64,000 nt of DNA from Bacteroidales bacterium (GTDB lineage Bacteria > Bacteroidota > Bacteroidia > Bacteroidales > Tenuifilaceae), in assembly GCA_013141385.1 (NCBI GenBank), contig JABFRB010000043.1, forward strand, positions 1 to 64,000, written 5' to 3'. The notes beneath the pieces are model-generated. The model saw only the letters and a list, made by a program, of their open reading frames with translations. It searched no databases and had not been told where the DNA came from. This document shows, in pieces, positions 29,972 through 43,699 of this stretch. The translations under genes and the position numbers were made by a program. Within the stretch, counting starts at the first letter, position 1. The number at the start of each line of letters is the position of its first letter.

Positions 29972-31231
29972 TTAATGCAATATTCTACTAATCACTGGCA
30001 TTAGTAATAACATTAACGATAGACCAACCAGAATACCAATTGTGGACCAGCCAATGATATTGTTGATGGGTTTATTCACGTATTGCCCCATTATTTCTTT
30101 TTTATTTACCAATAATATCATACAAACTAAAACTACTGGTAGTAATAGCCCATTTAGCACTTGTGACCAGAGGGATATTTGAATTAATGGTGCATTTGGG
30201 AGAAGGATGATTCCAGCCGCAATAACAAGAATACTTGTGTATAAGGTATAAAATTCAGGTGCTTCTTTCCACTTTTTATCAATCCCCGCTTCAAATCCAA
30301 AGGCTTCGGAGATGTAAAAAGCGGTGGCTAAGGGTAATATTGTAGCAGAGAATATTGAAGCTATAAAAAGTCCAAATGCAAATACTTGAGAAGCAATTCT
30401 ACCTGCCAACGGTTTTAGTGCTAATGCAGCATCCTTTGCCTCATTAATCTGAATACCATTTTTATGAAGAGTTGAAGCGCAAGCAACTACAATAAAGAAG
30501 GCAACAACAACAGTAGCCGTACATCCAACAACGATATCAATTATGGTGTACTTATAATTCTTCATCTTAAGCCCCTTCTCAATTACGGACGATTGCATAT
30601 AGAATAGCATCCATGGGGCTATGGTTGTACCTACGAGTCCAATTATCATCGCAATACTGTCCCCATTTACTTCGAACTGAGGACGAACTATTGCATTGCC
30701 AATTTCACCCCACTCAGGTTTACCCATTAATGCTGAAACAACATACATCAAGAGTGAAATGCTAAAAAGCAAGAAGATACGTTCGGCAATTTTATAGGTT
30801 CCTTTTACAACTAATAGCCACACAAGCATTGCAACAATGGGTACGGAAATATACTTGCTTACCCCTAAAACCTGCATACTACCTGCAACTCCAGCAAATT
30901 CGGTGGTTGTATTTCCAATATCACCAATTAGAAGGCCAAAAAATATAAAAAAGGTAATCTTTACACCAGCATTTTCACGAATTAAATCGGCCAAACCTTT
31001 CCCAGTAACAACGCCCATTCGTGCATTCATCTCCTGAATAACAATTAGGACAATAAACGAAGGGATAAGAGTCCATATTAGGTTATACCCATAAATTGCA
31101 CCCGCAACAGAGTAGGTGGTGATTCCTCCTGCATCGTTATCGACACTCCCTGTGATTATTCCTGGGCCTAGAATTGCAAGAAAAACTGCTAGTCTCCTGA
31201 AAAATCTTTTATTCTTTATCTCTAATGTCAT
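29972..31231 (-). CDS. NRAMP-family divalent metal transporter (magnesium-type, NRMT-like)
   Basis: 419 residues with about 11 helices. The first-helix metal site reads GSVDNDAGG (Asp33-Ala-Gly-Gly36) where Mn/Fe NRAMPs have DPGN. The sixth-helix site reads TIAPWM (near residue 205) where they have MPHN-type Met. The loss of Asn and Met (to Gly and Ala) is the pattern reported for NRAMP-related magnesium transporters, which bind a hydrated ion. It starts 6 nt after an MgtE-like sensor domain gene, so both are made together. Transport of Mg2+ is therefore more likely than Mn2+ or Fe2+; this is inference from residues and context. Confidence 0.8.
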   Translation of the reverse strand: MTLEIKNKRFFRRLAVFLAILGPGIITGSVDNDAGGITTYSVAGAIYGYNLIWTLIPSFIVLIVIQEMNARMGVVTGKGLADLIRENAGVKITFFIFFGLLIGDIGNTTTEFAGVAGSMQVLGVSKYISVPIVAMLVWLLVVKGTYKIAERIFLLFSISLLMYVVSALMGKPEWGEIGNAIVRPQFEVNGDSIAMIIGLVGTTIAPWMLFYMQSSVIEKGLKMKNYKYTIIDIVVGCTATVVVAFFIVVACASTLHKNGIQINEAKDAALALKPLAGRIASQVFAFGLFIASIFSATILPLATAFYISEAFGFEAGIDKKWKEAPEFYTLYTSILVIAAGIILLPNAPLIQISLWSQVLNGLLLPVVLVCMILLVNKKEIMGQYVNKPINNIIGWSTIGILVGLSLMLLLMPVISRILH

Positions 31232-31237
31232 CCCCTT

Positions 31238-32515
31238 TTACCTTTTGAAAGTTCTACGCTTATTCACCAAATCCTCAACAACGTCATCAATAACAACCAT
31301 TCCCTGTAGGATGTTATTTTTATCAATAACAGGAATTGCAAGGAGGTTGTACTTCGAAATAATCTCAGCAATATCATCAATCCCTTGATCATCATAAAGG
31401 TATATGGGTTCCTCTTTCATAATCTGGTTGATTGTTGTCTCTGGTTCGGAGACAATCAAATCGCGAAGCGTAAAGAAACCAATAAGCTCATCATTAGCAT
31501 CGGTAACAAAAAGATTATATAATTCAACAGCCTCAGGTTTTCTGTGACGAATCTCCTTTATAACATCATCTACAGTTTTTGCTGGGTTGTATGCAAGAAT
31601 TTCGGTTGTCATAATACTGCCCACGGAGTCGTCCTCATATTCAAGCAGTTCGCGCACCTCTTGTGACGATTCTGCCTCCATCTCCTTTAGCAAACTTTCG
31701 GCCTTATCATCTTCTAATTCATCAAGGATATCGGCAACCTCATCGGCGGGCATCTTCTCAAGAACGTCGGCAACTTTGCCAATTGGCAAACTTTCAACCA
31801 GATGGATCTGTGCTTCAGTTTCAAGTTCTTCGAGCACATCAGCAGCCTGTTCCTCATCAAGTGCATTGAAAAGGGTTTCGCGTGATGGTCTGCCAAGCTC
31901 CTCCATAATATCTGCTAAATCCGATGGGTGGAGGGTATTAAGTTTTGAGTAAACCTTGGATAGTTTAATGCTATGACTGGAGAAATCGATGGCCTGCACA
32001 TCATCCCATAGGATGAATTTTGCTGGTATGCTGATTCCTAAAAGTGATAGGATGAACTTAATGGGTTTTTCAATGTCAATTCTACGGAGTAACCCTTCAA
32101 TCCCAATATCAACGGCAATGGCAAATGTACCAGCAGGTAAATCAACTAGTCTGATATCGTTAACCCTTACAAGTTTTCGCCCGTTGAGGTCGACAATCTG
32201 TTTGTCCAACATTAATTGCGCCAGGGAGAAACCGTTGTTTCTTACCTCCTCGGTTAATTCAACCAGATTATTGCACTTAACGGTAAGTCGCCCCTCTATT
32301 CTAAACACATCGAAAAATTCGAATGAAAAGAATTTCACGCCCTTTTTTGTTTTGACTTTAACGCCAATAACCTTGGGCTTATCGGGAATATCGTTAGGGT
32401 TGGCTGTAAGAGTATCAACCATTAAATCCTTTACAATACCAATTTTTTTACCTTCGGCATTGTAAACCCTTTTTCCAATAATACGGCTTAAATAAAAAGT
32501 TGAAAGATTTGCCAT
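31238..32515 (-). CDS. PRC-barrel + MgtE cytosolic (N and CBS) domain protein without membrane part
   Basis: 425 residues from ATG 32515, where AGGAGG lies 5 nt upstream (a GTG at 32521 overlaps that site and is less likely). Two PRC-barrel-like regions come first (SRIIGKRVYNAEGKKIG; VDLNGRKLVRVNDIRL). Then comes the MgtE N domain (HPSDLADIMEELGRPSRETLF, ADVLEKMPADEVADILDEL) and two CBS motifs (GSIMTTEILAYNP; LLAIPVIDKNNILQGMVV). The MgtE transmembrane domain is missing. In MgtE this part senses cytosolic Mg2+ and gates the pore. It is followed directly by the NRAMP-type gene and may gate that transporter in trans. Cytosolic. Confidence 0.85.
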   Translation of the reverse strand: MANLSTFYLSRIIGKRVYNAEGKKIGIVKDLMVDTLTANPNDIPDKPKVIGVKVKTKKGVKFFSFEFFDVFRIEGRLTVKCNNLVELTEEVRNNGFSLAQLMLDKQIVDLNGRKLVRVNDIRLVDLPAGTFAIAVDIGIEGLLRRIDIEKPIKFILSLLGISIPAKFILWDDVQAIDFSSHSIKLSKVYSKLNTLHPSDLADIMEELGRPSRETLFNALDEEQAADVLEELETEAQIHLVESLPIGKVADVLEKMPADEVADILDELEDDKAESLLKEMEAESSQEVRELLEYEDDSVGSIMTTEILAYNPAKTVDDVIKEIRHRKPEAVELYNLFVTDANDELIGFFTLRDLIVSEPETTINQIMKEEPIYLYDDQGIDDIAEIISKYNLLAIPVIDKNNILQGMVVIDDVVEDLVNKRRTFKR

Positions 32516-32642
32516 ATTCACCTCCTAATTTTTTACACACAGAAGGCGGATTGGCTTAAAGCAAACTACCTGCCTGTATGCGGGTTAATAATTTGTATCG
32601 CAGGGTCGTCGTCCATATAAATTTTAATACTGATTAGCGTTG
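32516..32642 (-). promoter_or_regulatory. Leader region of the MgtE-like/NRAMP unit
   Basis: About 120 nt lie between the predicted start of transcription and ATG 32515. It carries short complementary words (cctgcgatac and gcatacaggcagg) and ends in AGGAGG. No M-box consensus could be found. A metal-responsive leader is possible but unproven. Confidence 0.35.
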
Positions 32643-32673
32643 CAAAAGTAGGTCTCTCTTTTTATTATCCAAA
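32643..32673 (-). promoter_or_regulatory. Promoter of the MgtE-like/NRAMP unit
   Basis: Minus-strand TTTG, 19 nt spacer, then TACTTTTG (positions 32673-32643): a full-consensus Bacteroidota sigma-ABfr promoter. It is the best promoter seen in the window. Confidence 0.75.
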
Positions 32674-41425: not shown

Positions 41426-43699
41426 TCACAACTTATTTTCACTTGCCTCTCTTATCAAATTCAAAGCACTTCCTGCCTTAAACCACTCAATTTGCGATTC
41501 ATTATAGGTATGGTTTGCAAGGATTATCTCCTGCTTTCCATCTGAGTGGTTTAAAACAATTTTGAGCTGATTTCCTTCCGAGAAATTGGCTAAGCCAGTA
41601 ATATCGAGCCTATCGCCTTCCTGAAATTTGTTGTAATCATCCTTATTTGAGAATGTGAGTGCAAGAACGCCCTGCTTTTTCAGGTTTGTTTCGTGGATAC
41701 GGGCAAACGATTTCACTAGCACCGCTTTAACATTTAAAAATCGGGGCTCCATTGCAGCGTGCTCTCTCGACGATCCTTCTCCAAAATTCTCCTCGCCCAC
41801 TACAATAGAACCTAAGCCCGATTCTTTATAATACCTTGCAACCTGAGGCACTGCCTCGTATTTCCCCGATATCTGATTTAAAATGCAATTTGTTTGATCG
41901 TTAAATGAATTTACTGCACCAATCATGTAGTTATTCGAAATATTATCGAGATGTCCTCTGTATTTTAGCCAAATACCTGCCATTGATATATGATCGGTGG
42001 TGCATTTCCCCTTGGCCTTAATTAGCAATGGCAAACCTATATAGTCCTTCCCATCCCATCTCTGAAATGGTTCGAGAGCCTGTAAACGCTCGGAATTTGG
42101 ATCGATTTTTATTGATATATTACTTTTATCCTTTGCAGGATTTTGGAATCCGCTGTTGATATTTCCGAAACCTTGAGGGGGAAGATCAAACCCTTTGGGT
42201 TCACTTAGTTTTACCTGTTCTCCTTCGGCGTTGATTAGGGTATCGGTTAGTGGGTTGAATGTTAAATCTCCAGCAATTGCAAGAGCAGTAACTATTTCGG
42301 GCGATGCAACAAATGCATTGGTGTTAGGGTTTCCATCGGTTCGTTTTGCAAAATTCCTGTTGAATGAGTGTATTACAGTGTTTACCTGTTTTTTGTCAGC
42401 ACCTTCCCGATCCCATTGCCCAATACAAGGTCCACAGGCGTTAGCGAATAGTTTTCCGCCTATTCTTTCAAATGTGTTAATAAAACCATCGCGAACTGCG
42501 ATAGATCGAATTTGTTCGGAACCTGGGGTGATTGTAAACCCTGCCTTTGTCATTAATTTTTTTGTTATGGCATCCCGTGCTATTGATGCTGCACGTGAAA
42601 GATCTTCGTATGATGAGTTGGTACACGATCCAATAAGTCCATACTCAATTTTTGTAGGCCAACCGTTCTTCTCAGCAGCCTCTTTCATCTTGGATATTGG
42701 GGTTGCCAAATCGGGTGTGAATGGGCCATTTATGTATGGCTCCAGCTCCGAAAGGTTAATTTCTATAAGTTGATCATAGTATTTTTCAGGATCAGCATAA
42801 ACCTCTGGGTCGGCAATTAAATGTTGTTTGATATTCCCTGCCAAATCCGCAACCTCTTTACGACCAGTTGATACTAGGTATTTCGACATTGCCTCGTCAT
42901 ACCCAAATATTGAGCAGGTTGCGCCAACCTCGGCACCCATGTTGCATATTGTGGCTTTGCCAGTGCATGAAAGCGATTCAGCACCCTCACCGAAGTATTC
43001 AATAATACATCCAGTTCCCCCTTTAACCGTTAGGATTCCGGCCACTTTTAGTATGATATCTTTAGCGGTAGCCCATCCATTCAATCGCCCGGTTAGCTTA
43101 ACTCCTATAAGGTTAGGGAATTTTAGTTCCCATCCCATACCCGACATTACATCAACGGCATCGGCTCCGCCAACACCAATTGCTATCATGCCCAATCCGC
43201 CTGCATTCACGGTGTGCGAATCGGTACCAATCATCATTCCGCCAGGGAATGCGTAGTTTTCCAGAACAATCTGGTGAATTATACCTGCTCCTGGTTTCCA
43301 AAAGCCAATATCGTACTTATCGCAAATTGTGCTAAGAAAATCGTAAACCTCTTTATTGGTAATGTTTGCTGTGTTTAAATCGGCCGCAGAACCTTCCTTT
43401 GCCATAATTAGGTGGTCGCAATGAACGGATGTTGGTACTGCACTTTGATCCTTTCCTGCCATTATAAATTGGAGTAATGCCATTTGAGCTGTTGCATCCT
43501 GCATGGCAACCCTATCGGGAGCAAATTCCACATAATCAACTCCTCGCTTTAATGGATGATAGCTATTTTTTGTGAATAAATGGCTATACAGAATCTTCTC
43601 GCTCAAAGTTAAAGGTCTACCAAGATCTTTCTTAACTTTTGAGATTATGAGGGGTAGTCCATCATAAAATGATTTTATCATCTGGAGGTCGAATATCAT
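41426..43699 (-). CDS. acnA: Aconitate hydratase
   Basis: 757 residues, the mitochondrial/AcnA-like form. The [4Fe-4S] Cys ligands are in [12 protein letters not shown] and [11 protein letters not shown]; active-site [22 protein letters not shown] and [19 protein letters not shown] also present. Isomerises citrate to isocitrate. First gene of the TCA cluster; the following gap has a short palindrome. Confidence 0.95.

Follow-up and report, generated by a model that had tools for sequence, protein, structure and literature searches.

A candidate magnesium-import operon of a Bacteroidales bacterium: an NRAMP-related transporter, a pore-less MgtE-type protein and a probable leader peptide upstream

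According to the available text of Shin et al. (2014, PMC4072509), most genes for NRAMP-related magnesium transporters (NrmT, here NRMT) neighbour a homologue of the N-terminal cytoplasmic domain of MgtE, many of these MgtE-like genes lie under magnesium riboswitches, and a cytoplasmic feedback or chaperone role is proposed for the MgtE-like neighbour. The pairing and the feedback idea have been in print there since 2014; the literature we searched held no later test of the neighbour's role, left open at that time, and in the open-licence PMC literature we found no paper combining the PRC barrel with MgtE and NRAMP. Leader peptides provide the second comparison: the accessible parts of the reports describe Glu2 and Asp4 in an EPDP motif for MgtL (PMC11282234), and Asp2, Pro4 and Glu5 for MgtQ, with stem-loops that free the mgtB ribosome site (PMC8092293). 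Here we analyse a stretch of 64,000 nucleotides from a Bacteroidales bacterium (contig JABFRB010000043.1; 'the window' hereafter, to which all coordinates refer), whose minus strand carries an operon made of a short upstream open reading frame (uORF), a gene for an MgtE-type protein lacking the pore, which we call the sensor, and an NRMT gene. We lean slightly towards reading this operon as a Mg2+-import module with feedback at both the protein and the expression level. What is new here is the leader peptide, together with an RNA that may take two states.

On the minus strand, the order is the box TACTTTTG, the uORF, the sensor gene (31238..32515, 425 amino acids), a 6-nucleotide gap reading AAGGGG (31232..31237), probably the ribosome site of the next gene, and the NRMT gene (29972..31231, 419 amino acids). 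The sensor reading frame taken from its GTG spans 31238-32521; the alternative ATG at 32515 is the better start, since the AGGAGG sequence ends five nucleotides before it. A check of reading frames and sequence agreed with the frames, coordinates, sensor start and gap given in an earlier note on this DNA, made from the letters alone.

The transporter belongs to the PF01566 family (Pfam, E 2.1e-97). Its closest solved relative is EleNRMT (phmmer E 2.8e-112), followed by Deinococcus MntH (E 2.1e-26), and its NDAGG and IAPWMLF stretches align with NDAGG and IAPWMMF of EleNRMT, against DPGN and VAPH of Deinococcus MntH. The alignment bears out what the earlier note had read in the metal site, where DAGG and APW replace DPGN and MPH. 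In a tree with 56 rows, too, the transporter falls among NRMTs and apart from MntH, so that phmmer and phylogeny both group it with EleNRMT and not with the Mn/Fe-type protein; the node joining EleNRMT has a support of only 80, several branches are long, and the label 'no_sensor' that EleNRMT and DraNramp bear in this tree means just that neighbourhood data are lacking for both. By pattern match, DAGG is present in 77 of 80 related NRMTs of named genomes and APW in 79. The same genome encodes a second NRAMP, of the DPGN type (L001), and one CorA. The window transporter is an NRMT, which by family would carry Mg2+.

Pfam finds PRC (one barrel), MgtE_N and two CBS stretches in the sensor. The MgtE pore (PF01769) is missing from the protein by Pfam and has no match in the whole genome, which means that the sensor is no MgtE channel. 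A model built with AlphaFold2 from 54 sequences (mean local confidence, pLDDT, 86.6; predicted template-modelling score, pTM, 0.52) has two beta barrels at residues ~7-83 and ~97-187, a helical N domain, a CBS pair and a C-terminal helix (411-426) that corresponds to the start of the plug helix. It matches the Mg2+-bound cytosolic domain of MgtE (2yvy) with Z 25.5 and a root-mean-square deviation of 2.7 over 239 residues. The VIA-align list for the whole model was crowded by CBS proteins, so the PRC half (31952..32515, minus strand) was folded and searched alone; this model (pTM 0.80) resembles the PRC-barrel proteins CdpB1/CdpB2 (8qzo, E 1.8e-6), and weaker matches (E 0.004 and above) are to reaction-centre H subunits and RimM. 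With two modelled barrels and this match, the plural 'PRC barrels' is right, and the earlier description of the gene as MgtE_N and CBS domains with PRC barrels and no pore is upheld by Pfam, model and genome search alike. Eight PRC2 residues (D106, Q108, K116, R119, N121, D122, D138 and R147) were considered as a signature for docking on the NRMT and remain only a lead: all eight are kept in 7/7 sensors of NRMT genomes outside the defining alignment, and also in L179 and L185, sensors of genomes in which no NRMT was matched, and in the second copy L162, with seven of the eight in L178 and L180.

How regularly do the two genes occur together? In the window's own phylum we surveyed 296 genomes and counted rows among the matches listed. 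There, 38/38 full-length sensor rows adjoin a co-oriented NRMT, and 38 of the 40 NRMT rows of at least 233 bits adjoin a sensor; the other two lie near contig ends, and one of them shows a cut sensor. The sensor comes first in 6 of these pairs and the NRMT in 32, with the genes adjacent in both orders. Below 233 bits, no sensor accompanies the four rows at 186-216 bits, which are not of the DAGG type (DAGS or DPSG), or the 143-bit contig-end fragment that we examined. The named-genome survey covers 80 NRMT loci, the best 80 of 579 relatives and hence a near clade. A sensor is adjacent in 73 of these 80, or 73 of the 77 testable loci, two of the sensors being incomplete or split (L081, L098). 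Three of the remaining seven loci are at a contig start and allow no verdict; the other four lack an adjacent sensor, and each of their genomes (G299, G304, G305, G306) holds one elsewhere with no listed NRMT beside it, that of G305 consisting of two reading frames.

Surveys of two further groups gave a similar picture. Among 245 Clostridia genomes, with NRMT defined as rows at 1e-150 or better, a sensor is found in 6/6 NRMT genomes and 6/7 NRMT genes are adjacent to it; another two genomes, without a sensor, show only weaker rows (1e-62) that do not fit the DAGG pattern and were not counted as NRMT. In the class of Desulfosporosinus (82 genomes, NRMT rows of at least 300 bits), NRMT occurs in 38 genomes, the sensor in 41 and both in 38, that is, the sensor is present in 38/38 NRMT genomes against 3/44 others (Fisher p 6e-20, kinship ignored), and 36 of 42 NRMT rows adjoin it. 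Ten rows at 234-258 bits were dropped here; G597 and G604 have these alone and no sensor, which would make the count 38/40 if they were included. DAGG-type NRMTs are nearly always accompanied by a sensor, linked or not, and the linkage of the two genes reported earlier for the window extends to most relatives (73/77 loci, the own phylum, the class of Desulfosporosinus). The mirror-tree correlation of NRMT and sensor (r 0.458, 0/2000 permutations as high) carries little weight, since neighbouring genes tend to be passed on jointly; in the three unlinked pairs, the partner from the same genome came 3rd, 23rd and 4th among 38. The neighbouring genes for an SDF symporter, a glyoxalase and a phosphoribosyltransferase had no tblastn match in the 80 NRMT loci, 15 of which are shorter than 6 kb and could hide them, and are therefore not counted in the module.

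Some loci are arranged unusually. At L101, both strands hold a complete sensor-NRMT pair, and each of the two pairs has an MDDDPA leader. Sensors split into two reading frames occur at L166 (G305), L098 and L167 (G296), the break in G305 falling between the PRC half and the MgtE_N-CBS half; a split homologue of the MgtE-like gene is also described for C. acetobutylicum in the available text of Shin et al. (PMC4072509).

Does the sensor keep the means to bind Mg2+? The sites named in the accessible part of PMC5882242 for MgtE were mapped on 79 sensors in the upstream order, 30 in the reversed, NRMT-first order and 12 MgtE proteins of the same phylum, after removal of rows with a cut sensor match. 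In the upstream-order sensors, the Mg4 acids D91 and D247 are Asp in 75/79 and 78/79, respectively, the Mg6 acid D95 is Asp in 79/79, and the Mg7 acid E59 is acidic in 69/79. Among 225 columns ranked by conservation, D95 comes first, D247 8th, D91 14th and E59 just 71st. The window counterparts are D260 (for D91), D413 (D247), D264 (D95) and D228 (E59). Positions 214, 216 and 217 are acidic in 24 to 47% of sensors against 83 to 92% in the MgtE set, and the loss of these acids and of D226 fits, as far as residues can tell, a gating unit that has come off its MgtE pore. The reversed-order sensors (L009-L032 and relatives) form a subfamily that hardly senses Mg2+ in the same way, to judge from the replacement of its Mg4 acids by Ala and His; another signal or metal may be read there.

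The uORF was sought as M-[DE]-[DE]-x-P or M-[DE]-x-[DE]-P within ~450 nucleotides of the sensor gene. In the named set, the pattern precedes 35 of 39 sensor genes from Bacteroidota, where shuffled sequence would give 0.22, and it is also present in the window, where the 16-codon frame MDDDPAIQIINPHTGR occupies 32566..32616 (minus strand) by the alignment and the leader model. One of the 35 is doubtful (L128, a GTG-started MEDSP far upstream), and the uORF of L077 reads MDESEP, with Pro one place later. We aligned 36 leaders, leaving out L034, which has no recognisable Shine-Dalgarno sequence (SD). Codon 5 is Pro in 35 of them (CCT 21, CCG 13, CCC 1), with 307 synonymous against 35 non-synonymous pairwise differences; codons 3, 4 and 5 are variable in their third bases, the first two bases of codon 5 are almost constant, and there is free variation over codons 7 to 12. 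At the nucleotide level, codon 6 is GCG nearly throughout (29/36). A TAnnTTT[GA] box lies at most 60 nucleotides upstream of the uORF in 34/35 cases against 5.5 expected. In the window this is the box TACTTTTG (32643..32650, minus strand), which matches the consensus of the Bacteroidota -7 promoter box. The leader is very probably a real conserved uORF; open-licence PMC papers, including the available text of PMC6429828, yielded no published description of it.

The RNA around the uORF can form two helices. Helix A was found by RNAalifold on the 36 leaders, and helix B, which pairs an anti-SD stretch with the SD, was picked from single folds. In the window, helix A lies at 32536..32580 (minus strand; 5' arm ~32570-32580, 3' arm with the anti-SD ~32536-32546, hand-mapped from alignment columns), and helix B at 32519..32548 (minus strand; anti-SD ~32540-32548 with the SD AGGAGG at 32521-32526), where it is part of the minimum-free-energy fold. 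Helix A has 88.6% of its cells paired, two-sided change in 8/10 pairs and a covariation of 0.440, against a shuffle mean of 0.285 (0/500 as high) and at most 0.234 for slid versions. The corresponding values for helix B are 80.6%, 7/11 and 0.289, against 0.205 (0/500 as high) and at most 0.158. As the anti-SD columns are common to both, the helices are mutually exclusive. The pairing probability of the SD averages 0.85, against 0.67 with the upstream part shuffled, and is higher in 31/36 leaders; when the folds are forced, helix B is the more stable in 22/36. The uORF stop falls within -20 to +15 nucleotides of the start of the helix A 5' arm in 33/36 leaders, so that a ribosome completing the uORF would cover that arm. 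An MgtQ-like 1:2 stem over the uORF start, tried as a further element, had no good support across the leader alignment.

A covariance model of the 36 leaders was run over 395 genomes of the phylum (E 0.01, with strict filters that may miss weak copies). This blind search returned three matches: the window, which is a training row, G731 and G722. The G731 match reads MDSDPANTNNLITCA before a sensor gene, a peptide outside the original DNA search pattern, and the G722 match (L222 1501-1599, plus strand) reads MDEGPNKNNLKY directly before corA (PF01544, E 2.7e-52). In both of these leaders, a hairpin of 12 pairs covers the SD (z -2.61 and -3.82). The G722 match links the leader to a second, unrelated kind of Mg2+ transporter; the model had no match before the CorA gene of the window's own genome. 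A weak second match within the window (43531-43662, minus strand; 13.7 bits, E 0.39) is probably due to chance.

The window has no Rfam match, and so no M-box riboswitch (RF00380) or catalogued leader. An M-box was found in 12 of the 14 Bacillota NRMT loci scanned, in 11 before the pair and in one (L143) before an NRMT whose sensor lies elsewhere, and before 18 of 20 Bacillota pairs of a second set, whose L192 coincides with L095 in the first. Among 16 other loci scanned, only L141, also Bacillota, has one; eight Bacteroidota loci were without. An M-D-x-D-P uORF, with an SD-like stretch ahead of it, precedes 7 of 14 Bacillota sensor genes against 0.10 expected. All seven loci (L089, L095, L117, L120, L121, L126, L138) have an M-box, and the uORF lies between it and the sensor gene. 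Reversed-order loci have an acid/Pro uORF in 1/24 cases (0.2 expected), and a looser pattern finds one in a single Spirochaetota locus, L102.

How might the parts work together? A feedback of the sensor on the NRMT is the likely interpretation of the residues and the linkage; we infer the responses to Mg2+, the docking of the sensor and the sign of control. The NRMT would import Mg2+, as its family suggests. High cytosolic Mg2+ would bridge the N and CBS/plug parts of the sensor through the Mg4, Mg6 and Mg7 acids, and the closed sensor would inhibit the NRMT in trans, the PRC barrels being its likely docking part. For expression, we see about an even chance that Bacteroidota, and some Bacillota past the M-box, employ a leader that senses Mg2+ in the manner of MgtL and MgtQ (M-D-[D/E]-x-P or M-D-x-D-P), with a two-state SD switch in Bacteroidota, to control the sensor-NRMT operon and one corA. 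A ribosome would translate MDDxP of the uORF, and the leader would set the expression of the pair. At low Mg2+, the acidic-proline nascent chain may cause early drop-off of the ribosome (intrinsic ribosome destabilization, as in MgtL), which would leave the uORF end uncovered, let helix A form and take the anti-SD, and free the SD. At high Mg2+, the ribosome would finish the uORF and cover the 5' arm of helix A, helix B would hide the SD and the pair would be off. That the uORF senses Mg2+ by such drop-off is an analogy on which we are evenly divided.

A number of observations weigh against this module. In the available text of Shin et al. (PMC4072509), C. acetobutylicum NrmTs are functional without an MgtE-like gene, the NrmT of Acidobacterium capsulatum rescued a Mn2+-transport mutant, and co-expression of the MgtE-like partner brought this NrmT no gain in Mg2+ rescue. 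Of the 13 Clostridia genomes that hold a full-length sensor, seven show no match to NRMT at 1e-60 (in one of them the sensor is at a contig end), and an NRMT is likewise missing from 3 of the 41 sensor genomes in the class of Desulfosporosinus; five of the NRMT-less Clostridial sensor loci are divergent to a ygiQ-type radical SAM gene. The Mg5 aspartate D226 is Asn in 59/79 sensors and D250 is acidic in 72%, one of the two acids being gone in the window (N392 and E416), and reversed-order sensors have Ala at D91 and His at D246 in 28/30 each. The ATP-binding residues vary, and we make no claim of ATP sensing. The in-trans Mg2+ sensor that the earlier note proposed is partly supported: its Mg4 and Mg6 acids are kept and the genes are linked or at least share a genome, but the A. 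capsulatum results and the NRMT-less sensors of Clostridia speak against it, and the idea had appeared in 2014. For the leader, the search pattern itself dictated codon 2 and bases 1 and 2 of codon 3, which hence are no evidence. The uORF is present in just 1/5 further same-phylum loci from the whole-genome search, and in 5/30 loci of the second Bacillota set, one of them the same place as L095. It is absent from 4 more distant Clostridial pairs, 3 unlinked sensors and 14 other sensor genes (Spirochaetota 0/4, Ignavibacteriota 0/6, Omnitrophota 0/4), and the leader from 40 MgtE upstream regions. In 5/36 leaders, shuffling the upstream part does not lower the pairing of the SD. The window leader folds no better than its shuffles (z 0.25), the covariation support coming from the 36 leaders jointly; its forced folds favour A, and its free fold is the SD hairpin.

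Could the sensor do something other than gate the NRMT? It seems unlikely that it accompanies the NRMT as a buffer for Mg2+, a chaperone or a scaffold and leaves transport unregulated. The lack of a co-expression effect and the chaperone role named by Shin et al. (PMC4072509, available text) would suit such a protein, as would the sensors without Mg4 acids that still adjoin an NRMT, but Mg4 and Mg6 acids are kept in 75 to 79 of the 79 upstream-order sensors and the full MgtE cytosolic fold is there, with its Z of 25.5 to the Mg2+-bound form. We also give little credence to a general Mg2+-responsive adaptor with several clients, of which the NRMT would be the commonest. In its favour are the Clostridial sensors whose genomes lack a match to NRMT, with the ygiQ-type gene divergent to five of these sensors, and second sensor copies with no listed NRMT beside them (G302, G300). 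The second copies L184 and L167 are likewise divergent to a ygiQ-type gene. In the class of Desulfosporosinus, however, only 3 of 44 NRMT-less genomes have the sensor, and the NRMT-linked L173 nests within the clade of NRMT-less sensors, which fits NRMT loss too. The NRMT-less sensors may represent either a lost NRMT or a sensor with other clients.

The Clostridial PRC-MgtE_N-CBS genes divergent to a ygiQ-type gene, with no NRMT beside them, are L178, L179, L180, L181, L182, L184 and L167; in four cases, a cell-wall-hydrolase gene comes next. Among six ygiQ-side sensors, L180 and L184 have uORFs beginning MEGDP and MEDGP ~230-255 nucleotides upstream (0.03 expected). L162 (G302), a second full-length Desulfosporosinus sensor with no NRMT beside it, is followed by a 648-amino-acid protein of the amino-acid-permease type (PF13520).

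The leader itself might be an RNA element with a chance MDDxPA reading, untranslated and blind to Mg2+. The nearly fixed GCG of codon 6 (29/36) and the covariation of both helices would agree with this, but we regard it as quite improbable: codons 3, 4 and 5 differ at their wobble positions, whereas the first two bases of codon 5 are almost constant, synonymous differences at codon 5 outnumber the others by 307 to 35, and the Bacillota versions keep the peptide pattern and SD-like stretches upstream. A pair devoted to Mn2+ or some other divalent ion, to which the sensor would be tuned, is very unlikely in spite of the Mn2+ rescue by A. capsulatum NrmT (PMC4072509, available text) and the altered Mg5 site, given a metal site and sequence that are those of EleNRMT, the M-box at 12/14 and 18/20 Bacillota loci and a separate DPGN-type NRAMP in the same genome.

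If the import module with its two levels of feedback is real, the leader and the in-trans MgtE-type sensor would put two Mg2+ feedback loops on one importer, and the nascent-peptide sensor would be far older, or more often reinvented, than its enterobacterial cases imply. The leader suggests that Mg2+ may be read through ribosome stability on an acidic-proline nascent chain outside enterobacteria. Gating by the sensor should be easy to test, given its PRC barrels, the pattern of Mg sites that it has kept or lost and the genomes in which it stands apart from the NRMT, and the leader could be tested with a single reporter.

Compared with the NrmT/NRMT systems described in the accessible parts of Shin et al. 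(2014, PMC4072509) and of the report on EleNRMT (7QIA, PMC8806188), the window has the same family, site residues, neighbour gene and proposed feedback; it differs in having no M-box. To that published picture, as far as the available text goes, the present analysis adds the counts, the sensors not linked to an NRMT, an account of which Mg sites have been kept or lost, the two PRC barrels and the leader peptide. With the MgtE channel (available parts of PMC5882242, PMC8104411 and PMC5529423) the sensor shares the MgtE_N and CBS fold and the Mg4, Mg6 and Mg7 acids, whereas it has no pore, a short plug helix and tandem PRC barrels ahead, and has lost the Mg5 aspartate and most of the acids at 214, 216 and 217.

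The leader resembles MgtL and MgtQ, as partially accessible, in being a short uORF with acids and Pro in residues 2-5 ahead of a gene whose family suggests Mg2+ transport. The acid spacing of EPDP in MgtL equals that of M-D-x-D-P in Bacillota, and MgtQ has exclusive stem-loops hiding or freeing the SD, as helices A and B may do; MgtL differs in its Rho-dependent termination. The phyla and the downstream gene family are different, and the likeness is one of pattern, in peptides too short to indicate descent. Finally, the M-box riboswitch (RF00380) has the same gene pair downstream in Bacillota; the eight Bacteroidota loci scanned carry the leader instead.

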